Assembly: GCF_019469165.1 (NCBI RefSeq)
Contig: NZ_CP048263.1
Location: forward strand, 496,001 to 560,000
Origin: Gilliamella sp. ESL0443
Lineage (GTDB): Bacteria; Pseudomonadota; Gammaproteobacteria; Enterobacterales; Orbaceae
DNA: 64,000 nt
Reading direction: 5' to 3'
Of this stretch, positions 26,001-60,833 are shown in pieces. Both the position numbers and the translations under genes were made by a program. Numbering within the stretch: the first letter of the stretch is position 1; each line of letters begins with the position of its first letter. Under the pieces are notes generated by a model that was given only the letters and a program-made list of their open reading frames with translations, made no database searches and was not told the DNA's origin.

Positions 26001-26909
26001 TTATTTAGAGTTTTTAATTAATTCTGCAATACCGCCAATGCTACCCATTAAGCTAGAAGCATCTAGTGGCATCATCACTACTTTACTGTTATCTGAAGCA
26101 CCGATTTGTTGTAAAGCTTCAGTATATTTTTGAGCAACGAAGTAGTTGATCGCATTAATGTTACCAGCAGCAATCGCTTCTGAAACCATTTGTGTAGCTT
26201 TTGCTTCGGCTTCGGCAGCACGTTCACGCGCTTCTGCTTGTAAAAATGCAGCTTGTTTTTCACCTTCTGCTTTTAATATTTCTGACTGTTTTTCACCTTC
26301 AGAGCGTAAAATAGCCGCTTGGCGGATACCTTCTGCTTCAAGGATCTCAGCACGTTTGTTACGTTCAGCTTTCATTTGCGCGTTCATGGCTGCAATAAGT
26401 TCTGCTGGTGGGCGAACGTCACGAATTTCGATACGGGTAATTTTAATTCCCCAAGGGCTAGTTGCATCATCAACAATGCTAAGAAGTTTTGAGTTGATGT
26501 GATCACGTTGTGATAACATTTCATCAAGTTCCATACTACCAAGTACGGTACGAATGTTTGTCATCATCAGATTAATAACCGCACGCTCAAGTTGATTAAC
26601 TTGGTAAGCAGCTCTTGCAGCTTCTTGTACTTGAATAAAGCAAACCGCATCAATTTGTACATTCGCATTATCTTTAGAAATAACTTCTTGAGATGGGATA
26701 TCAAGAACTTGTTCCATCATATTAATTTTGCGACCCACACCATCCATAAATGGGATAATGATGTTTAAGCCAGGCTCAAGCGTATGAGTGTATTTACCAA
26801 AACGCTCGATGGTATATTGGTATCCTTGTGGAACAATGGTAATAGCTTTAAAAACGGTTACGATAGCTAATAAAACTATTATCGCAATAAGAATATAAAA
26901 TATTGGCAT
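26001..26909 (-). CDS. qmcA: SPFH/band-7 membrane protein QmcA
   Basis: A 302-residue stomatin/prohibitin-like protein. One N-terminal membrane helix ([20 protein letters not shown]) precedes the band-7 domain ([20 protein letters not shown] onward). A long Ala/Glu-rich coiled coil runs from about residues 180-255 ([20 protein letters not shown]). The length and start agree with E. coli QmcA (YbbJ neighbour). It is the first gene of a two-gene unit with the NfeD-like protein, and is divergent from the trp operon. Confidence 0.94.
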
Positions 26910-49957: not shown

Positions 49958-50111
49958 CTTGTACAATTTGATTTTTGATGATTGGGTAAATTAACGTCAT
50001 AAAAATGGTCTATAGTCATTTTGTTGCAATCAATATGCAATTTTATCTTATCACATTGAACACACTCAAAGAGATAACCAGTCAGTGAGCCATCTTTGGA
50101 TAATGACGTTC

Positions 50112-50972
50112 TTACTCCTCAATAAGACGAATTGTTTCCTGCAATTTTTTCAATTCAGCAGTACTTAGAAAATAATTAATAGAATTTTTAATATAATCAG
50201 CTATTTGTTTATATGTTTGTAAATTATCGGATATAGGATAACAGTCAATATAATGACTAAATGACACGATATCATCAATATCGGCAAACTGTTGCTTGGT
50301 AAGTTTATTCAAATATTGTTTTAAATTTTTAGTTTGACAGTTTACCGGAGAGGCTTGTAACCAAAACTGATTGTCATGAAACTGATAAGTTAAATCAATA
50401 GCTTTTTTATATTGATAGATATCGTCTTTTACCTCCGCTACATAGCCGAGTTCATAAACAGCGTCTAGTTTAATATGAAATAGCTGATCTTTAATCGTGG
50501 ATGAAAAGTAAAATATGTGATCTTCATGTCCAGTTTTTCCCGCTACCATTAATTCATCTAGATATTTTCCATTTTTGTCAAAAGCATTAATTAATTTGAT
50601 ATCTTCGTTGAAACCTTCGCCTATACCATCAAAAGTAAAATCATAGAGTATGAATTTGATATCACCCATTTCAAAGCGGCCAATAGCTTTTAGATTTTTT
50701 AGCGTAAAATAGTTGTCGGTTTCAAAAATAGGCTTATCATAATAGCTATAATCATCATCATCGAAATGGAAAAATTTGCTATCAACATATATTCCAGTGA
50801 CGGTATTATAGCTATCAATAGGCATGGATAAAACAGGTAAACTTTGATAGAAGTCATCGAAGGAATCAAAATGCTTTCTATGATTATATGAGTTATCATT
50901 GGCAAACACTACATGAGTGTTAAACAGAGTAAAAAATATCGCTAAACATAAAGTAGAAACTATTTTTTTCAT
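50112..50972 (-). CDS. Uncharacterised exported protein
   Basis: A 286-residue protein not recognised by family. A signal peptide KKIVSTLCLAIFFTLFNTHV ends near VVFA before NDNSYNHRKHF. The mature protein is rich in Asp, Tyr and Phe (FHFDDDDYSYYDKP) and has beta-strand-like alternation up to about residue 200, with DFTFDGIGEGFNEDIKLINA resembling a calcium-binding-type acidic loop. Two cysteines near the C-terminal third may pair. The C-terminus is a predicted helix (STAELKKLQETIRLIEE). It has no operon partners. Confidence 0.7.
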   Translation of the reverse strand: MKKIVSTLCLAIFFTLFNTHVVFANDNSYNHRKHFDSFDDFYQSLPVLSMPIDSYNTVTGIYVDSKFFHFDDDDYSYYDKPIFETDNYFTLKNLKAIGRFEMGDIKFILYDFTFDGIGEGFNEDIKLINAFDKNGKYLDELMVAGKTGHEDHIFYFSSTIKDQLFHIKLDAVYELGYVAEVKDDIYQYKKAIDLTYQFHDNQFWLQASPVNCQTKNLKQYLNKLTKQQFADIDDIVSFSHYIDCYPISDNLQTYKQIADYIKNSINYFLSTAELKKLQETIRLIEE

Positions 50973-51112
50973 TTTCCTATAAAATCCTTTTTTATTACTA
51001 AATATTTACAATTTTTGCAGTCAGTATATTTCATGAAATAAGTTTTTCTTTCTGCAATGTTACATCTTCATAACTATTTAATTATGTAGATAAATTATGG
51101 CATTAGTTTTGA

Positions 51113-51265
51113 CCAAAAATCCAGATTTATCTGATTGTTGAGATTAAAGCATTTAGTAATGGGATAATTATTGGAAATTATAGAAATAATGGAAAGTGGT
51201 GTTGTGATAGCAGCAATTTCGCCAATGAATTTAAGAAAGGTATCAGGTTTCGTTTAATAGAATAG
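51113..51265 (+). pseudogene. Possible 3' remnant of a surface-protein gene
   Basis: A 50-codon open stretch without any ATG, GTG or TTG start ends in TAG. Its last 35 codons read like a real protein C-terminus (GNYRNNGKWCCDSSNFANEF, then KKGIRFRLIE). It sits in otherwise gene-free DNA between the unknown exported protein and gcd. It may be the decayed end of a lost gene. Chance cannot be excluded. Confidence 0.25.
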
Positions 51266-51296
51266 TTAAATTAAACTGACTAGATTGTATTTTATT

Positions 51297-51333
51297 TGCC
51301 ATTATATCGTTAAAACTAAACGATATAATGGCA
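51297..51333 (-). terminator. Long hairpin downstream of gcd
   Basis: A perfect 15-base stem (TGCCATTATATCGTT with AACGATATAATGGCA) and 7-base loop, 38 bases past the gcd stop. There is no U tract on the minus strand, but the stem is among the longest in the window. Confidence 0.55.
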
Positions 51334-51371
51334 TTTCTAGATTAAGCTTATTTTATCTATTTTGCCAAAAA

Positions 51372-53735
51372 CTATTTTTTATCTGGCAATGCATAAGCAA
51401 TAACATAATCGCCACGCACAGGAGATTGTCTTGCGCCACTAGCTGAAATCACAATATATTGTTTACCTGTTTTTGGTGAGATATATGTTATTGGAGTACC
51501 TTGACTACCCACCGGTAATCTTGCTTTCCAAACTTCTTCACCGGTAACGGAATCAAAGGCTCTTAGGTAAAAATCTTGCGTAGCAGCAAAGAATAATAAA
51601 CCGGATTTAGTCGCCATTGGTCCACCAATGGTCGGCATACCGATTGGAGCAGGTAAATGCATAGGTATACCTAAAATACCCGTATCCATAACAGTGCCTA
51701 AAGGTTTTTGCCAAACCACTTGACGTGATTTAAGATCAATAGCTGTCATTGTACCATACGGTGGTTTTTGGCATGGAACGCCAAGAGGTGAGGTAAATCT
51801 TAAACGCATTGCACCAAATGGTGTTCCTTTTTGTGGAACAATACCCATCTCAATCCCGCTTGAATTTTTCGGAATTTGATCTTGAGGAATCATCCAATTT
51901 TTCAAGCCAATACGCATATCATTAACAAACATTAAATTGTTTTGAGGATCAACTGCCACGCTACCCCAGTTCATACCACCCAACGATCCTGGATATTGTA
52001 ACGTTTTAGTCATACCCGGCGGAGTGAACAGACCATGATATTCAGAACCAACAAAGTCAATACGACAAAGAAGCTGATCATATGGTGTTGCTCCCCACAT
52101 ATCGAACTCAGTTAAGGTTTCATTACCAATTGAAGGCATCCCCACTGAAAATGGTTGAGTCGGAGAATAATATTCACCCGGAACATTACCTTGCGGAACT
52201 GGTTTTTCTTGGACTTCTGCAACAGGTTTACCCGTTACGCGATCAAGCATAAAAATTTGACCTGATTTTGTGGTTTGCACAATGACTTTTGTCACGCCAC
52301 CATTTTCATTTGGAATATCATAAAGTAATGGTTGGGAAGGTAAATCATAATCCCATAAATCATGATGAGCCGTTCTAAATGTCCAACGAATTTGTCCTGT
52401 TTTACGTTCTAAAGCCACAATAGACGAATTAAAATCATCATCATAATGAGTTCGACCACCACCAAAAAAGTCTGGGGTTGCATTACCGGTTGGAGCATAA
52501 ACAAGATCGAGCTCTGGATCGTAAGCCGTTGTTGCCCAAACGTTAACGGTACCGCGAGTATAGGTTTCATTTGCAGGTGGTACATCGGTAATATTTGGAT
52601 TACCCGGATCCCACGCCCAAACCAAATTACCGGTATGAACATCAAAAGCTCGAACTACCCCGCCAGGTTCATTGATTGAAAAGTTATCGGCAACCCGTCC
52701 ACCAACAACAATAACATCTTTGGCTACTAACGGTGCAGCAGTCGGTTCATAATAGCCAGGCGGAATATCACCCATATTTTTCTTAAGATCCACAACGCCT
52801 TTATCACCAAAATCTTCACATAATTTACCGGTATTGGCATCGATTGCCATTAAACGGGCATCAATAGTGTTCATAATGATTCTAGCTGAACAAGTCGCAT
52901 TACTATTGCTAACATTATCTAAACTATCTTCATAATAAGCTAAGCCTCGACAACGCTCCCAGTTTGGAGTTGATGCTTTAGGATCATAGCGCCATTTTTG
53001 TTGACCTGAATCTGCATCTAAAGCAATCACAATATTTGTTGGGGTGCAGAGATAAACATTTTGGCCAATTTGTAATGGCGTATTTTGATCTTCCGGACCT
53101 GAACCGCTGTTATAAGGCACATAACCGGTACGATAAGTCCATGCGACTTGAAGATCTTTTACATTCTCTTTGTTAATTTGATCCGCTCCGGAAAAACGCG
53201 TCCCTTTAGTGGTATTCGCATATTGTCTCCAATCAAGCAGATTGTCTGTAGGTTTCAATTGATTGTTGGCTAAAGGTACTGCATTTTTAATCACATTATG
53301 TTCCTGGAACATAAATCCGAGCGAAACACAAAGCGCAACAAAAATAAAAATACCGACAGCATACCCACCTTTGCCAGCTTTATTATCGCCTGTTTCATGT
53401 TTCTTTAATGTTGGATAAGCAAATGCAATAAGCATTGCAAAACCACCAAATACCATTAAACGAGAAAATAACGGCCAGAACTGCAAACCAACTTCATATA
53501 ATGCCCAAACAATTGTTAAGGCATAAGCTAAAGCATAAAGCCATGCACCTTTAGTGTTTTGCTTAAATAAAAGAAATGAGGAAACGATTTGCACCAACCC
53601 CATTAATAAAAAATACCAACTACCACCAACGGCAACAAGTCGCACACCGTTAATGGTCAAAAACAGCCCGCTGATTAATAAAATTGTGGCAACAAGCCAT
53701 AAATAAAATTTTTTAGCACCATTTATCTTTATCAT
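51372..53735 (-). CDS. gcd: Membrane PQQ-dependent glucose dehydrogenase
   Basis: A 787-residue quinoprotein that oxidises glucose to gluconolactone in the periplasm and passes electrons to ubiquinone. Five N-terminal membrane helices lie in residues 10-150 (FYLWLVATILLISGLFLTI; YAVGIFIFVALCVSLGFMF). The eight-bladed propeller begins at DWRQYANTTKGTRFS. AHHDLWDYDLPSQP and the W-docking blades (GALRAFDVHTGNLVWAWDPG type) bind PQQ. The length matches E. coli Gcd. No pqq synthesis genes are in the window, so the cofactor may come from outside. Confidence 0.96.
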   Translation of the reverse strand: MIKINGAKKFYLWLVATILLISGLFLTINGVRLVAVGGSWYFLLMGLVQIVSSFLLFKQNTKGAWLYALAYALTIVWALYEVGLQFWPLFSRLMVFGGFAMLIAFAYPTLKKHETGDNKAGKGGYAVGIFIFVALCVSLGFMFQEHNVIKNAVPLANNQLKPTDNLLDWRQYANTTKGTRFSGADQINKENVKDLQVAWTYRTGYVPYNSGSGPEDQNTPLQIGQNVYLCTPTNIVIALDADSGQQKWRYDPKASTPNWERCRGLAYYEDSLDNVSNSNATCSARIIMNTIDARLMAIDANTGKLCEDFGDKGVVDLKKNMGDIPPGYYEPTAAPLVAKDVIVVGGRVADNFSINEPGGVVRAFDVHTGNLVWAWDPGNPNITDVPPANETYTRGTVNVWATTAYDPELDLVYAPTGNATPDFFGGGRTHYDDDFNSSIVALERKTGQIRWTFRTAHHDLWDYDLPSQPLLYDIPNENGGVTKVIVQTTKSGQIFMLDRVTGKPVAEVQEKPVPQGNVPGEYYSPTQPFSVGMPSIGNETLTEFDMWGATPYDQLLCRIDFVGSEYHGLFTPPGMTKTLQYPGSLGGMNWGSVAVDPQNNLMFVNDMRIGLKNWMIPQDQIPKNSSGIEMGIVPQKGTPFGAMRLRFTSPLGVPCQKPPYGTMTAIDLKSRQVVWQKPLGTVMDTGILGIPMHLPAPIGMPTIGGPMATKSGLLFFAATQDFYLRAFDSVTGEEVWKARLPVGSQGTPITYISPKTGKQYIVISASGARQSPVRGDYVIAYALPDKK

Positions 53736-54364
53736 GAATAATCCTTATACTTAATATTAATCTTACTATTGATTAAATTTCTCAGTTAATTTGACGATGT
53801 TTAATGAGTAATGGTAGAAAACGACGGGGGTAAAAGATGAACTCCTTAATTATTTATCATCATCCATCAACAAGGCAAAAACTTGTCTGATAAATATGCA
53901 ATTAATATGCTCTCAATCATTGAGAAAAACAATAGGGGCATGAAAAATTTTTTTGACTTTTTTGCGATTAAAATTCACGTATTTTAATATCCCAAAATAA
54001 TAAATTTTATGGTTAAAAATCAAATTATTAGCATAAAGTTAACGCATACTTTTATCATATAAAGCATATTAGTCTGATTGAATGTTTCGCCAGTTTAAAC
54101 AAACTGAAAGGATTTCTTGATTTTTTTATAACTCAAAAAAGTTGAGGAGCAGGTTTTTTAGGTTATAAATTCTACTTTAAAAAGTTATTAAATGATCAAA
54201 ACGACGATTTTAAACACTAAAATAAAATTTTTCAGGATCAACATACCAAATTTTAAAGATTTGTAATTGCAATATATTTAATTAAAACAGTAATTAACCA
54301 ATTAATAGTCAGATCCTTTTTAGATCATATTTACGAAAGCTAACGTAATTGAGTGAAAAAAGTG
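53736..54364. other. AT-rich intergenic region upstream of gcd and the surface-protein gene
   Basis: About 630 bases with no credible gene. It must hold the gcd promoter (minus strand) and contains one copy of the dispersed A-run/core/T-run element. Otherwise nothing recognisable is seen. Confidence 0.6.
54135..54159 (+). repeat. Dispersed A-run/core/T-run element, copy 2
   Basis: Six A, the core GTTGAGGAGCAGG and six T. Outer bases TTTATAAC and GTTATAAA extend the A/T pairing into a longer imperfect inverted repeat. It lies upstream of the putative phase-variable gene in the same orientation. Confidence 0.75.
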
Positions 54365-54393
54365 TTGCATCGTGTTTTTCCAATCACTATACT
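54365..54393 (+). promoter_or_regulatory. Candidate promoter P1 of the surface-protein gene
   Basis: TTGCAT (54365-54370) and TATACT (54388-54393) are separated by exactly 17 bases. A transcript from here would include the ATG at 54485 and the heptamer repeat. Confidence 0.6.
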
Positions 54394-54466
54394 TTTTACA
54401 CGGTTTTAGTTAAGAAACTAAAATTTAATGTAAAAGTATAAAATTTCAAATAAATCATAAAATTAC

Positions 54467-54496
54467 TTGACAGGATTGTCGCAAATGTTTTATAAT
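54467..54496 (+). promoter_or_regulatory. Candidate promoter P2 next to the heptamer repeat
   Basis: A consensus TTGACA (54467-54472) and consensus TATAAT (54491-54496) are spaced by 18 bases. The -10 box ends 3 bases before the tandem repeat, so transcription would begin inside it. The AGGA used as ribosome site for the ATG at 54485 overlaps the -35 box. Confidence 0.5.
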
Positions 54497-56097
54497 TTCC
54501 AACAGGCAACAGGCAACAGGCAACATGGCTAACCTCTAATTTAAATTCGTCTAAGTTCAGCTTCCAACGTTCATTTTACACCGAGATTTATTTTTCCACG
54601 CAATTATGTGGAATTCTGCGAATTATCGCGCGATCCGCTTTTCGATCCTCTTATTCTTTTAAATTATCTTGGTGGATTCTTTTGGGTTCGGTTATTTTAC
54701 ATCCTTTTTCTAGCTTCGCATTAACTTCACAGACTACAAAAAATCCGATTCAAGGTAGCGCACCTTATTTAACCTTTGATGGTGGTCGTACTCGTGTGGT
54801 TGATACTGATGCTTTGCTTGGGATTACGTTATCTAATGGTGTTAAATACACGCCTTCAACTAATACTTCTTTTACAACGCCAATCGTATTGCCTGTTGCG
54901 GGTCAAAGTTTTGCTGATATTGGTATGTTGGTTCCTACTTATACTAATTCAGTCGCTTTAAGTTCGCTTATCGGTCCACCTTATAATTATTGGGGAGATG
55001 ATGATGGCGATACTGACGTTACAGCTAATGGTAGTTTAAGTTTATCTATCGTTGATAAATATAATCAACCCGTCACGCGTCATGCTGTTCCAGATATTTG
55101 CAAGGCGCCTTATCAGGTTAAATTAGCTAGCACTGACGGCACATTAAGTACTCGTTATGGCGTTCCAAGTAGTCGTATTTTCAGCGCAAGTAATGTTACT
55201 TATTATATCAATCCACAAGCAGGGGCTGTGGTTTGTTTTGCTAGGCCTAACTTAAGATATTTAATTATTGAGAATGAATATCATTATTTTAATCACGTAT
55301 CTGGTCCTGCTTCTATTTGGAACCCTGCTAAGGGCTTTTTACTTCAATCAATTACGCCGTCATCTTATGGTTTAAATTTTCCGACTACTGGCGCTAACAA
55401 TTTGTATTTTGACTTAGACATTGCTGGTAGTAATCAGGCTTTATCTTGGGCTCCTGTCTCGCATGATGGCATCACTGCTACTATGACTAGTTCTACAGCG
55501 ACAGGCGTACGCGTCACTTTAACTGGGCCGGTTTTAACTAAATTCGGACGGAATTCTAGCAATTTTGCTGTTGAGATTCCTGCAATTAAGCCGCCTACTT
55601 TGCCACAAACATTCGAGTTAGTCGGTCGCGATAACAGTGGTAAAGCTGCCATTAAATATGGTTTTGTATTAAAGCAGTGGTTTTATCCTTCTAACCAAGC
55701 TTATACTTATGATAAAGCATCATCTATCTGTAGTGATCAACGTTTACGTTTAGCTACGGTTAAAGATTTAACTAATGCTTCTTGTAATGGGATAAATTCT
55801 CGTAGTGAATGTAAAGGTGCCGTCGGCGCAATACCTTCATCACCTAATAATTACTTTCAGCGTATAATTGGTGCAGGATTGTTTAGTGAGTGGGGCTCAA
55901 CGCACTCATATAATAACATCGGTTTTTTTGACCTCAGTTACTACTGGACTAGTGATGGAATAATGCCTCCTTTAAAAGGCCGTAAATCATCAATAACTCC
56001 TACTCAGAACCGTAAATTTGCCGTTAGTCCGAGAAATGGTTCGATAACACGTTTTTCCATTAAGAGTTCTAGTCCCATGCTCTGTGTCTCGCCTTAG
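54496..56097 (+). CDS. Putative phase-variable exported surface protein
   Basis: The frame is open from 54496 to the TAG at 56095-56097 (533 codons), but its first usual start is a TTG at 54682 that would cut into the signal peptide. Upstream codons encode a long N-region (SNLNSSKFSFQRSFYTEIYF, then KLSWWILLGSVILHPFSSFA), an extended signal peptide. The mature protein is Ser/Thr-rich. Its C-terminal third (FVLKQWFYPSNQAYTYDKAS; RLRLATVKDL; YYWTSDG) resembles DUF1566/Lcl-like or lectin-like domains of adhesins. ATG 54485, with AGGA 9 bases upstream, joins this frame only if the heptamer repeat gains one copy. The family is not firmly recognised. Confidence 0.7.
   Translation, partial: FPTGNRQQATWLTSNLNSSKFSFQRSFYTEIYFSTQLCGILRIIARSAFRSSYSFKLSWWILLGSVILHPFSSFALTSQTTKNPIQGSAPYLTFDGGRTRVVDTDALLGITLSNGVKYTPSTNTSFTTPIVLPVAGQSFADIGMLVPTYTNSVALSSLIGPPYNYWGDDDGDTDVTANGSLSLSIVDKYNQPVTRHAVPDICKAPYQVKLASTDGTLSTRYGVPSSRIFSASNVTYYINPQAGAVVCFARPNLRYLIIENEYHYFNHVSGPASIWNPAKGFLLQSITPSSYGLNFPTTGANNLYFDLDIAGSNQALSWAPVSHDGITATMTSSTATGVRVTLTGPVLTKFGRNSSNFAVEIPAIKPPTLPQTFELVGRDNSGKAAIKYGFVLKQWFYPSNQAYTYDKASSICSDQRLRLATVKDLTNASCNGINSRSECKGAVGAIPSSPNNYFQRIIGAGLFSEWGSTHSYNNIGFFDLSYYWTSDGIMPPLKGRKSSITPTQNRKFAVSPRNGSITRFSIKSSSPMLCVSP
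54500..54520 (+). repeat. Heptanucleotide tandem repeat, three copies
   Basis: Three exact copies of CAACAGG followed by a partial fourth (CAACATG). The unit is not a multiple of three, so copy-number change shifts the reading frame. It lies between the ATG at 54485 and the gene body. Confidence 0.9.
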
Positions 56098-56243
56098 CCT
56101 TTTTAATTTCTTGAAAGAGGGAATAGGGGAAGGAACTATAGCGTTAAAAAGTGTAGTTTAGTCATATGGTTAATGATGAAATGCGATTTTGTAGAGATGC
56201 TTGAACTACCTGATATGAGGATTAATTTCTTGACGTATTAAAG

Positions 56244-56268
56244 AAAAAAGTTGAGGAGCGGGGTTTTT
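56244..56268 (+). repeat. Dispersed A-run/core/T-run element, copy 3
   Basis: Six A, the core GTTGAGGAGCGGGG and five T. The core is identical to copy 4. It lies 146 bases downstream of the surface-protein gene, so copies 2 and 3 flank that gene as direct repeats. Confidence 0.8.
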
Positions 56269-56372
56269 GGGGCATTGATATGACTAAAATTAATCCAATC
56301 TTTTTATCAATAATAAAATAGCATGGTTAATAATTAGTTAATCGTTAATCTATAATGTGTTGAGACAAAATT

Positions 56373-56390
56373 CGCCCCTGATTGGGGGCG
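56373..56390 (-). terminator. Terminator of the ilv operon
   Basis: CGCCCC and GGGGCG form a GC-rich 6-base stem with loop TGATTG, just past the ilvA stop. On the minus strand it is followed by AATTTTGTC. Confidence 0.7.
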
Positions 56391-56396
56391 GTTGAA

Positions 56397-57938
56397 TTAT
56401 TTACCGGTTAAGAATAGTTTAAGTGAAGGATTTTCTGTTTCGTTATGGAATCCGTAATCCAATTCAGTTAAATGTTTTGTAAAGGTGCTATGGCTGGCGT
56501 TGTCTATTTCAAAGGCGGCTAGCACGCGACCATAATCGGTGCCGTGGCTACGGTAATGGAACATTGAGATATTCCAATTGGTACCCAAGGTTTGTAGGAA
56601 TTTGAGTAGTGCGCCTTGTGATTCAGGGAATTCAAAGCTGTAGACTTGTTCATTAATCGGTTGGCACGGTTTGCCTCCAATCATGTAACGGACATGCAGT
56701 TTTGCCATTTCGTCATCGGTTAGATCAACAACTTGATAACCGGCTGCGGTCAGTTCTTGCATGATTTCGTCTTTTTCGTTGCTTTTGGCAATTTTAACCC
56801 CAACAAACACGCAAGCTGATTTGTCGTCATGATAGCGGTAGTTGAATTCGGTCACAGCACGACCACCGAGCAGTTGACAGAATTTGAGGAAGCTGCCTTT
56901 TTGTTCTGGAATCGTGACCGCTAACAGGACTTCGCGTTTTTCGCCTAGCTCGCAACGTTCTGATACATAGCGTAGGTTGTGGAAGTTTAAGTTAGCGCCG
57001 GATAGAATATGGGCTAAGTTTTCGCCACAGATGTTGTTTTGTTCAACATATTTTTTCATTCCCGCTAACGCCACCGCGCCAGACGGTTCGGCAATAGCGC
57101 GCACATCGTCAAATAGATCTTTAACGGCAGCACAAATTTCATCACTATCGACAGTAATTATGTCGTCGATATATTGCTGGCAAAGTCTAAATGTTTCGTC
57201 ACCAATGCGTTTTACCGCGACGCCTTCAGCAAATAAGCCCACTCGATCAAGGTCAACGGGATGACCGGCAATGAGTGCTGCTTTTAGGCAGGCATCATCT
57301 TCAGGTTCAACCGCAATGACTTTAATTGATGGCATGATTTGTTTGATCAATACGGCAATACCGGCTGCAAGCCCTCCACCCCCAACGGGGACAAAGATGC
57401 GGTCAAGTTTGGCATTTTGTTGCAGTAGTTCCATGGCGATACTGCCTTGCCCTGCTATGACAAGGGGATGGTCGAAAGGGGGAATAAATATACGGTTTTG
57501 TTCTTTGGCTAATTCCATTGCTTTGGCTTTGGCTTCATCAAAGTTGGCTCCATAAAGTAGTACTTCTCCACCAAATCCTTTTACCGCTTCGACTTTAATA
57601 TCTGCTGTGGTTAATGGCATGACAATGAGGGAATTGATGCCTAATTTTGTGGCTGAAAATGCGACACCTTGCGCATGATTGCCGGCTGATGCAGCAATCA
57701 CGCCACATTTACGTTCTTCCGGTGTTAGGCTGGCAATCATGGCTTGCGCGCCCCGTATTTTGAAGCTGTGAACGAGTTGGCGATCTTCTCGCTTAACAAA
57801 CACTTGGTTTTTTAGGCGAGAGGAGATTTTTTCCATATACTCTAGTGGTGTCACTTGAGCGACATCGTATACCGCACTACATAGCGTGGCTTTTAGATAA
57901 TCAGCGCCGGTTAGTTTGTTATTATTCACGTTAACCAC
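56397..57938 (-). CDS. ilvA: Threonine deaminase, biosynthetic
   Basis: A 513-residue PLP enzyme converting threonine to 2-oxobutyrate, the first step of isoleucine synthesis. The Schiff-base Lys is K60 in [12 protein letters not shown] and the phosphate loop is [11 protein letters not shown]. Two C-terminal ACT-like regulatory domains ([40 protein letters not shown]) mark the isoleucine-inhibited biosynthetic form. It overlaps ilvD by 8 bases and is the last gene of ilvLGMEDA. Confidence 0.97.
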
Positions 57939-59781
57939 CTAGTTTACTTTTATCACGTACCGCACCTTTGTCAGCACTGGTTGCTAAGCTTGCATAAGCT
58001 TTTAGTGCGTATGAGACATAACGGTTACGGTTATGAGGTGTAAAGGCTTTATCACCGCGAGTGAGTTCAGCTACGCGACGACGTTCTAATTCATCTTCAG
58101 GTACGAGGATGTTTAATTTTCGATTTGGGATGTCGATATCAACAATATCCCCATCTCGAACTAAACCAATCACGCCACCGTTGGCAGCTTCTGGCGATAT
58201 GTGACCAATGGATAACCCTGATGAACCACCAGAGAATCGACCATCGGTAATTAATGCACAAGCTTTGCCAAGACCCATTGATTTTAGGTAGCTGGTTGGG
58301 TAGAGCATCTCTTGCATCCCTGGTCCACCTTTTGGCCCTTCATAGATGATGACGACTACATCACCTTCAACGACTCGACCACCTAAGATTGCATCAACCG
58401 CATCTTCTTGGCTTTCATAGACTTTGGCTGGTCCACGGAAGACTAAGTTTTCAGCTGCAACACTTGCCGTTTTTACAATTGCGCCATCTATGGCGACGTT
58501 ACCGTATAGGGTTGCTAGTCCGCCATCTTGGCTGTAGGCATGTGCTTTGTCGCGGATACAGCCGTTTTGGCGATCGTCATCAAGCGAATCCCAGTAACAA
58601 TCTTGTGAGAAAGCTTTGGTGGTGCGAATACCAGCCGGACCACTGCGATACATTTTTTTTACTTCTTCGTCAGTGGTTTGGGTGATGTCGTATTTTGCAA
58701 ACGTTTCTTGTAAGCTTAGACCAAGCACGTTGTGGACATTGCGGTTAAGTAATCCGGCTTTGTCTAACTCTGATAATATTGAGACAACCCCACCCGCGCG
58801 GTGTACATCTTCCATATGATAAATGGCGGTACTTGGCGCTACTTTACATAGGTGAGGGACTTTGCGAGATAGTCGGTCAATGTCTGACATGGTGAAGTCG
58901 ATTTCACCTTCTTGTGCAGTGGCAAGTAAGTGCAATACGGTATTGGTTGAACCACCCATAGCAATATCGAGCGACATGGCATTTTCGTAGGCCGCTTTGG
59001 TGGCTATTGATCGCGGTAAGTACGAATCATCATCCTGTTCGTAATAACGTTTGGTGATTTCAACAATGCGTTTAGCGGCATTTAAGAAGAGTTTTTCACG
59101 TTGTTTGTGTGTCGCAACCAGTGAACCATTACCCGGTAATGATAAACCTAATGCTTCAGTTAAGCAGTTCATTGAGTTAGCAGTAAACATACCTGAGCAT
59201 GATCCGCAAGTTGGGCAAGCCGACTGTTCAATTGCTTCACTATCGGCATCGCTAACATTTGGATTGGCACTTTGGATCATGGCATCAACTAGGTCGAGTT
59301 TGATGATTTTATCTGATAGTTTGGTTTTTCCCGCTTCCATTGGTCCGCCTGAAACAAAAACGGTTGGAATGTTTAAGCGCAGTGAAGCCATTAACATGCC
59401 GGGGGTGATTTTGTCACAGTTTGATATGCAGATCATGGCATCAGCACAATGGGCGTTAACCATGTATTCTACTGAATCGGCAATTAGTTCTCGTGAGGGT
59501 AGTGAGTAAAGCATACCGCCATGCCCCATGGCGATACCGTCATCGACAGCAATGGTGTTAAATTCTTTGGCAATGCCACCACATGCTTCAATTTCTTTTG
59601 CTACCAGTTGACCAATATCTTTTAAGTGAACATGGCCCGGTACAAATTGTGTGAATGAGTTAACCACTGCGATAATGGGTTTACCAAAGTCTTCATTTTT
59701 TACGCCTGTTGCACGCCATAAAGCGCGGGCGCCCGCCATGTTGCGACCTTCAATCGAGGTTGCTGAACGATATCTAGGCAT
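57931..59781 (-). CDS. ilvD: Dihydroxy-acid dehydratase
   Basis: A 616-residue Fe-S enzyme dehydrating dihydroxy-acids to the 2-oxo acids of valine and isoleucine. Cluster cysteines are C122 in [12 protein letters not shown] and C195 in [35 protein letters not shown] is also characteristic. The length is identical to E. coli IlvD. It lies between ilvE and ilvA as in enterics, and its stop overlaps the ilvA start. Confidence 0.98.
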
Positions 59782-59903
59782 TTGTTGCTCCCAATTTTTT
59801 TAATGCAAGCGACCGATTTCTTTCGGTACGTATTTGTGTTTTCAATCTATTTTAAATCGTTAAATAATGATGACATCGCGGTTTTTACAGCGGTGTACTG
59901 AGT

Positions 59904-60833
59904 TTATTTAATTGGATCTAACCAACCGTATTTGTCTTCAGTTTTGCCATTAAATAATCCGAAGAATGTTTGTTGGATTTTCTTGGTGATTGGGCCACAA
60001 CGACCAATACCAACTTGGATTCGGTCAACACTACGCACTGGTGTGATTTCGGCAGCGGTACCAGTCATAAATACTTCATCAGCTAGATAGAGTGATTCAC
60101 GTGATAGAGTTTGTTCACGTACTTCAATGCCTAGATCATGTGCAAGCTTGATGATTGCATCACGGGTAATGCCTGGTAGTGCTGATGATGATAGTAATGG
60201 GGTAAATAATATGCCATCTTTGACGATAAATAAGTTTTCGCCAGAACCTTCAGAAAGCTGACCGTTTACGTCTAATGCGATGCCTTCTTGGAAGCCATTA
60301 GCTCGCGCTTCTGATCCGATAAGAAGTGATGATAAGTAGTTACCACCCGCTTTAGCTGCTGCTGGGATAGTGTTTGGTGCAAAACGGTTCCATGATGATA
60401 CCATTGCGTCAATACCTTGTTCTAACGCATCTTCACCAAGGTAGGCTCCCCATGGGAATGCTGCAATCATAACATCAGTTTTGTAGCCAGCAGGCGGAAT
60501 AACGCCCATACCAACATCACCAATAAAGACTAATGGGCGAATGTAGGCACTTTTTAGGTTATTTTTTTTGATGACTTGGCGAGTGGCTTCCATGATCTCT
60601 TCAAGAGAATAAGGGACAGGAAAACGATAAATTTTGGCTGAGTTTAGTAAGCGTTGTGCGTGTTCTTTATGGCGAAAAATTGCTGGACCGTTGTGAGTTT
60701 CATAACAACGAACACCTTCAAATACTGAAGTTCCATAGTGTAGGGCGTGTGACATTACGTGTATTTTTGCATCAGCCCATGGAACCATTTCGCCATTTAG
60801 CCAAATATAATCAGATTTTGCTGTAGTACCCAT
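59904..60833 (-). CDS. ilvE: Branched-chain amino acid aminotransferase
   Basis: A 309-residue fold-type IV PLP aminotransferase performing the last step of valine, isoleucine and leucine synthesis. The PLP Lys is K161 in AAAKAGGNYLSSLL. YGTSVFEGVRCYET and EVFMTGTAAEITPVRSVD are family signatures. Gaps of about 120-140 bases separate it from ilvD and ilvM, longer than other spacings in the operon. Confidence 0.98.
   Translation of the reverse strand: MGTTAKSDYIWLNGEMVPWADAKIHVMSHALHYGTSVFEGVRCYETHNGPAIFRHKEHAQRLLNSAKIYRFPVPYSLEEIMEATRQVIKKNNLKSAYIRPLVFIGDVGMGVIPPAGYKTDVMIAAFPWGAYLGEDALEQGIDAMVSSWNRFAPNTIPAAAKAGGNYLSSLLIGSEARANGFQEGIALDVNGQLSEGSGENLFIVKDGILFTPLLSSSALPGITRDAIIKLAHDLGIEVREQTLSRESLYLADEVFMTGTAAEITPVRSVDRIQVGIGRCGPITKKIQQTFFGLFNGKTEDKYGWLDPIK

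Follow-up and report, generated by a model that had tools for sequence, protein, structure and literature searches.

The window analysed here is a stretch of 64,000 nucleotides from a Gilliamella genome of 2,404,493 bases, a bee gut symbiont. At positions 54365-56097 of its forward strand lie, from 5′ to 3′, two promoter-like sites (P1 and P2), a leader ATG within the P2 spacer, a CAACAGG heptamer array and an open frame of 533 codons. P1 (54365-54393), read from the sequence, is a putative upstream promoter-like site of the form TTGCAT-17-TATACT, and its predicted transcript would contain ATG 54485. P2 (54467-54496) agrees with the sigma-70 consensus at 12 of 12 positions, with TTGACA at 54467-54472, an 18-base spacer and TATAAT at 54491-54496, and it ends 3 bases 5′ of the array; since the ATG lies inside its spacer, a transcript from P2 would be predicted to begin within the array and to lack a start codon. 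The array (54500-54525) contains three full copies of the unit and a partial one (3.7 exact copies, TRF score 52), and a three-copy 21-mer with up to 2 mismatches allowed gave a mean of 0.00 matches across 100 dinucleotide shuffles of the window.

An initial annotation of this DNA had placed the array between ATG 54485 and the long frame (54496-56097), and inspection of the sequence bears out these positions. The ATG (54485-54487) follows a Shine-Dalgarno-like AGGA (54472-54475) at a distance of nine bases and opens a leader frame of 15 codons (54485-54529, the OFF product here) closed by TAA at 54530-54532; with the array intervening, it cannot enter the 533-codon frame as sequenced. The accompanying frame arithmetic is also correct, as one unit more or two fewer would give a continuous frame of 539 codons. 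The statement that the long frame lacks an in-frame ATG or GTG holds for its 5′ part, where TTG 54682 is the sole canonical start codon 5′ of the signal-peptide-like stretch, but not for the mature body, in which ATG, GTG and further TTG codons occur. Between array and signal sequence (window positions 54620-54680, and in own-genome paralogues), the leader carries in-frame GATCCTTTTTC-like units of approximately 12 bases, variable in number and reading RSFF, which produce clusters of GATC (Dam) sites. A CTTTACAAAAGTTAAC-like block at about 54325-54345, upstream of P1, was also seen by eye in family members of several species and is possibly an operator. An Rfam search of positions 50000-60000 gave zero matches at the gathering score, by which a known RNA element at the locus was ruled out, and a synteny look-up found the left neighbour gene in 6 of 35 genomes, this one included.

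The long frame comprises a leader segment, a signal-peptide-like hydrophobic stretch (by eye) and a mature body. From ALTSQT onward (54718-56094) the mature part is predicted to form an Ig-like plus C-type-lectin-like tail of the invasin/intimin type without a beta-barrel, based on a structure match to 1cwv and 1f00 (invasin/intimin tip). Intimin_C also gave weak hits to 7 of the 62 members searched, and together with the structure match this identifies the Ig-like and C-type-lectin-like C-terminal tip of inverse autotransporters in the family. The beta-barrel translocator was not found: at E 0.1 the mature parts of the 62 members matched nine families, and PF11924 was not one of them. Unlike domains D4-D5 of the invasin/intimin tip, then, the family protein has no N-terminal beta-barrel, stands alone and exists in tens of copies. 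A sequence search of the PDB found no match at E 1, and a named protein family was rejected for the locus protein, as NCBIfam gave no hit and Pfam sub-threshold hits only. A separate PF11924 match in the same genome lies in an 895-codon frame (G000:C1:1858968-1859780, L357).

CAACAGG arrays occur at 17 places in the genome, every one 5′ of a gene from this one family, and with two CAACAGC arrays the total is 19, of which 18 are out of frame. The protein has 33 family matches in its own genome, 31 of which keep 490 or more codons open, and the leader ATG is in frame in 11 of the 12 array-less members (two of the 11 are fragments, and the twelfth was not read properly). Across the genus, 32 of 35 genomes searched contain family matches, with up to 56 per genome and, in wkB178, up to 29 array-bearing family genes. 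Doubled CAACAGG was absent from the 23 other genus genomes searched; other species use other units. The genus sample consisted of 243 unique family 5′ ends of at least 200 codons each, with one genome per species. The loci read (77 named-genome loci, 80 regions and the genome-search loci) were picked along E-value listings from several hundred family matches, and the copies are related, so that p-values lack phylogenetic independence.

Arrays tied to a leader ATG were found at 135 of the 243 ends (132 heptamers, 2 octamers and 1 tetramer); frame counts omit 17 ends classed as out of frame without an array, several visibly mis-picked, and 41 classed as having no ATG. A recount that allowed periods of 4 to 12 found periods 6, 9 and 12 absent among these arrays, and all 135 place a non-triplet repeat (period 7, 8 or 4) between start codon and gene body. 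The heptamers fall into 21 unit sequences up to rotation, including CAACAGG, CAACAGC, CAACACA, CAACACG, AACACCC, AAGACAC, AAGCCAC, AGACACC, TGGCATC, AGGCATC and GACAACA. Exactly three full copies are present in 113 of the 132 heptamer arrays, a count by which the family appears to be default-OFF rather than freely fluctuating, and 112 of these 113 are out of frame, the exception having an extra base behind the array. Eight of nine two-copy arrays are likewise out of frame (the ninth, of 2.4 copies, adjoins unread bases), as are all six with five or more copies; the leader ATG is in frame in all four four-copy arrays and in one-unit members read beside near-identical three-unit ones. The 126 out-of-frame heptamer arrays are thus made up of 112 with three copies, all at one frame offset, 8 with two and 6 with five or more, and the 6 of 132 in frame are the four with four copies, the one with three plus the extra base and the one with 2.4. 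These six occur in six genomes, at most one per genome, most genomes having been sampled in part. Long arrays, with 5 to 23 copies of 7-, 8- or 4-mers, numbered 20 and came mostly from distant members; those of Orbaceae bacterium ESL0721 and G016 have 7 to 23 copies, again of these three unit lengths. They resemble the arrays of classical contingency loci.

Among 140 gene pairs that share 85% identity or more across 900 bases or more, the number of units differs in 10, and 14 pairs were classified as having an array in one member only. We found three versus two AACACCC units in genes 97.1% identical, three AGACACC units (out of frame) versus one (in frame) at 95.9% identity, and three AACACCA units (out) versus four (in) at 92.1% identity within one genome and 92.9% across species. 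Longer arrays differ as well, with 15.75 versus 17.75 GCCA units in genes 92.4% identical, and GACAACA arrays of 12.7 and 14.6 copies in genes 92.3% identical. Unit number thus differs between near-identical genes and sets the frame, with one- and four-unit members in frame, as in a contingency locus, and the whole-unit differences look like the expected trace of unit gain and loss. In 27 same-genome pairs at least 85% identical, involving few loci, the units themselves are different and the copy number is still three. The initial annotation's reading of the gene as phase-variable and currently OFF is, in sequence terms, supported, with paralogues and relatives behaving as predicted: copy numbers differ among relatives rather than remaining at exactly three, no in-frame start downstream of the repeat is conserved in homologues, and the N-termini of in-frame relatives begin MHYNF, MFYNF or MYYN. 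The same counts support extending the idea to a probable genus-wide default-OFF family.

The out-of-frame copies remain intact and under constraint. Over the mature part, their median dN/dS is 0.42 (919 pairs, 115 copies), compared with 0.38 for in-frame copies (72 pairs, 49 copies), and two close cross-species OFF pairs have values of 0.17 and 0.21. Values above 1 were obtained for 3.3% of OFF pairs and for zero in-frame pairs; among the closest OFF pairs listed, 8 of 12 exceed 1, all in G. apis. In G. apis NO3 (G043), within-genome comparisons of the mature part (for example L179 versus L178 and L181) give 1.1-1.3, which suggests possible diversifying selection or recombination in these pairs. 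Paralogues sharing under half of their 12-mers have identical tracts of at least 80 bases within gene frames, to which the counts were confined to leave aside shared DNA of neighbouring genes, in 7 of 406 pairs in the own genome, 78 of 465 in wkB178, 21 of 253 in G. apis NO3, 7 of 210 in G042 and 4 of 253 in G023. With the longest tract between divergent paralogues reaching 416 bases, this suggests that recombination may also shuffle the family.

From array to signal sequence, the long frame has 0 stops in 120 of 120 out-of-frame short-array copies, compared with averages of 4.5 and 3.4 per copy in the other two frames, so translation that begins upstream of the array seems at times to continue into the long frame. 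The leader itself seems weakly constrained, since its substitutions show hardly any third-position bias (4700, 5102 and 5464 by codon position) and of its 4643 indels only 1846 (40%) are multiples of three. A second start behind the array was not evident, as a Shine-Dalgarno sequence with a start codon occurs in the long frame in 4 of 126 copies versus 3 and 6 in the other frames, and in 70 of the 126 out-of-frame heptamer copies the stretch of long frame that leads from the array to the signal sequence lacks any ATG, GTG or TTG codon. TTG 54682 was rejected as a downstream start because it is not conserved. That the leader ATG is a mere promoter part was rejected as the sole account, given that array-less and one-unit members keep it in frame.

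Of 126 short-array copies, 124 have a P1-like TATAAT or TATACT 50-112 bases 5′ of the leader ATG (10 after shuffling), as do 35 of 49 array-less in-frame copies (8 after shuffling); by eye, the -35 part differs between species. Searching the genome for TTGACA-17/18-TATAAT returned 19 perfect sites in 2.40 Mb, all at family members, with 18 before arrays and one before a one-unit-like member, while the reversed pattern gave 5. The genus has 118 perfect sites in 19 of 35 genomes, five of which account for 9 to 40 sites each (19 in the own genome, G000, 14 in G042, 40 in G043 and 9 each in G006 and G005); where the family has no match, in three genomes, the counts are 0, 0 and 1. ATGNNN stands before TATAAT in 97 of the 118 (82 of these were counted by eye, in G000, G042, G043 and G006, and the others with a script). 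Because TTGAC and ATGNNNTA enter the score used to pick the ATG, ATG-anchored promoter statistics are partly circular, and P2 scores near arrays were anchored on the array: of 91 unique sequences upstream of short arrays, 53 hold a perfect site and 68 one that scores 11 or 12 out of 12, versus 3 and 7 of 84 array-less in-frame members (odds ratio 33, with copies that are not independent). In sites with a score of 10 or more, the end of the hexamer lies 2 to 5 bases 5′ of the short array. At long arrays the sites are weaker, with 1 of 18 perfect (a figure confounded with species), and two array-rich genomes lack perfect sites, namely G041 (0 of 10 unique sequences, mean score 10.1) and G023 (0 of 14, mean score 10.6). 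Conservation between genomes is 0.89 and 0.81 in the hexamers and 0.55 in the spacer for 17-base spacers, and 1.00, 0.99 and 0.52, respectively, for 18-base spacers, in alignments chosen on the hexamers and therefore favouring them. As P2 is enriched before arrays and P1-like sites also occur in array-less members, P2 tracks the short array and not expression from the ATG.

We consider it likely, with a probability of about 0.8, that the gene belongs to a large family whose members vary in phase at the level of translation. An mRNA transcribed from P1 would be translated from AUG 54485 through the heptamer array. With three units, or two, the ribosome would reach a stop just behind the array (OFF), and with four units or one it would enter the 500-codon frame and produce an exported invasin-tip-like protein (ON). 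Whole units would be gained and lost, most simply via slipped-strand mispairing, and three units would be the usual OFF state, such that few array-bearing members are probably ON at once, beside the in-frame array-less members. From the DNA we infer use of the leader ATG as start, the slippage mechanism, switching within populations, export and a surface role. Several points count against this account: free switching would put about a third of the heptamer arrays in frame, compared with the 6 of 132 seen (in copies that are related), three-unit arrays are short for slippage, the leader is weakly constrained, some OFF pairs have dN/dS values above 1, and the role of P2 is left unexplained. For P2, a tentative and rather unlikely proposal is that site and array form one device for transcription-driven, promoter-gated phase variation, in which RNA polymerase melts the array and copies it from the very first bases and thereby lets a three-unit array slip often enough to switch, while the transcript, having no start codon, makes no protein. 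It is plausible that starting transcription within a short array makes it slip more readily; the missing perfect sites in G041 and G023 make the device slightly less likely, and a non-coding transcript or interference with transcription from P1 are alternatives.

The stability of the three-unit state also fits an explanation in which the out-of-frame bodies are silent cassettes whose sole route to the surface is gene conversion that places them in in-frame copies, with the array as a lock. The identical tracts of at least 80 bases between otherwise divergent paralogues speak for such exchange, and we regard this as possible, if doubtful; the frame-changing whole-unit differences between near-identical genes run counter to a lock, and silent copies retain P1-like and P2 sites and a start codon that a cassette would not need. 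Cassette recombination and unit switching are compatible and can coexist. Alternatively, most out-of-frame copies could be decaying relics of an older switch, now fixed OFF, as the shortness of three-copy arrays, the few in-frame arrays and the dN/dS values above 1 might indicate. We judge this very unlikely in view of the long open frames kept in 31 of 33 own-genome matches, a median dN/dS of 0.42 that is near the in-frame value, and unit sequences that changed while copy number stayed at three (the 27 same-genome pairs, from few loci).

Constraint on the genes could also mean that three-unit copies are expressed as they stand, either because ribosomes shift frame within the array or because the P2 transcript is translated from a non-canonical start, and it is consistent with this that the three-unit state at one offset dominates (112 of 126 out-of-frame heptamer arrays) and that P2, perfect in many copies, would transcribe just the part behind the ATG. 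We find it highly improbable all the same: Shine-Dalgarno sequences with starts are about as rare in the long frame (4 of 126) as in the others (3 and 6), two- and three-unit genes would need opposite shifts, the widely varying unit sequences have no evident shared slippery site, and four-unit genes are in frame with no shift at all.

The class of mechanism favoured here, translational slipped-strand phase variation, is already known from neuO and from Haemophilus loci. In Escherichia coli K1, neuO is a prophage-borne acetyltransferase gene with 3 to 53 copies of the heptamer AAGACTC in its 5′ coding region, where unit number sets the reading frame and full-length translation follows if it is divisible by 3 (PMC13001214). 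A heptanucleotide tandem repeat in the 5′ coding region sets the frame in both systems, but neuO is a single prophage gene, whereas the Gilliamella family is chromosomal, comprises tens of adhesin-like genes with mostly exactly three units, varies in unit sequence by locus, is in frame at one or four units and often has a perfect promoter-like site adjoining. Surface-protein genes of Haemophilus influenzae similarly carry repeats whose units of 4, 7 and 8 bases are non-triplet, with hmw unit lengths that differ by strain; one heptamer tract within an hmw1A frame is frame-shifting, and a TonB-dependent receptor gene has an AACAACC tract that numbers 1-7 units (PMC2651432). The usual hmw1A and hmw2A heptamers, in contrast, are in the promoter, about 70-106 bases upstream of the gene, in 13 to 38 copies (PMC2651432), whereas the Gilliamella array lies behind the start codon in tens of paralogues and usually has three copies. 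Short heptamer repeats that are numerous in a genome and close to start codons are also found in Beggiatoaceae, where TAACTGA forms direct repeats of 2 to 6 copies; there the unit is fixed, mostly lies just 5′ of the start codon of genes without common function and is proposed to bind a post-transcriptional regulator (PMC4679880). The Gilliamella unit, by comparison, is not conserved, sits behind the ATG and marks one gene family.

Titles and abstract openings of the literature on Gilliamella phase variation, repeats and adhesins or invasins contained no description of the family, nor did the portions of the literature searched report such a scale in an insect symbiont, a three-unit state maintained despite differing units, or a promoter-like site fused to an array. 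Contingency loci have been described mainly from pathogens of hosts with antibodies. An insect-gut symbiont with up to 29 array genes would point instead to phages, competing strains or the host epithelium as the selecting force. The constant period and copy number among differing unit sequences amount to a natural experiment on what a switch needs, and the promoter-like site at the array raises the question of whether transcription initiation sets the slippage rate of short repeats.

In G007, four identical perfect TTGACA-17-TATAAT sites are spaced 331-332 bases apart (G007:C1:1742524-1743547), and similar sites were seen twice in G014 and once in G005; the repeated sites in G007 are perhaps a tandem small-RNA array. 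Within the window, a 33-base tandem repeat of 2.1 copies with 81% matches lies at 26231-26300.
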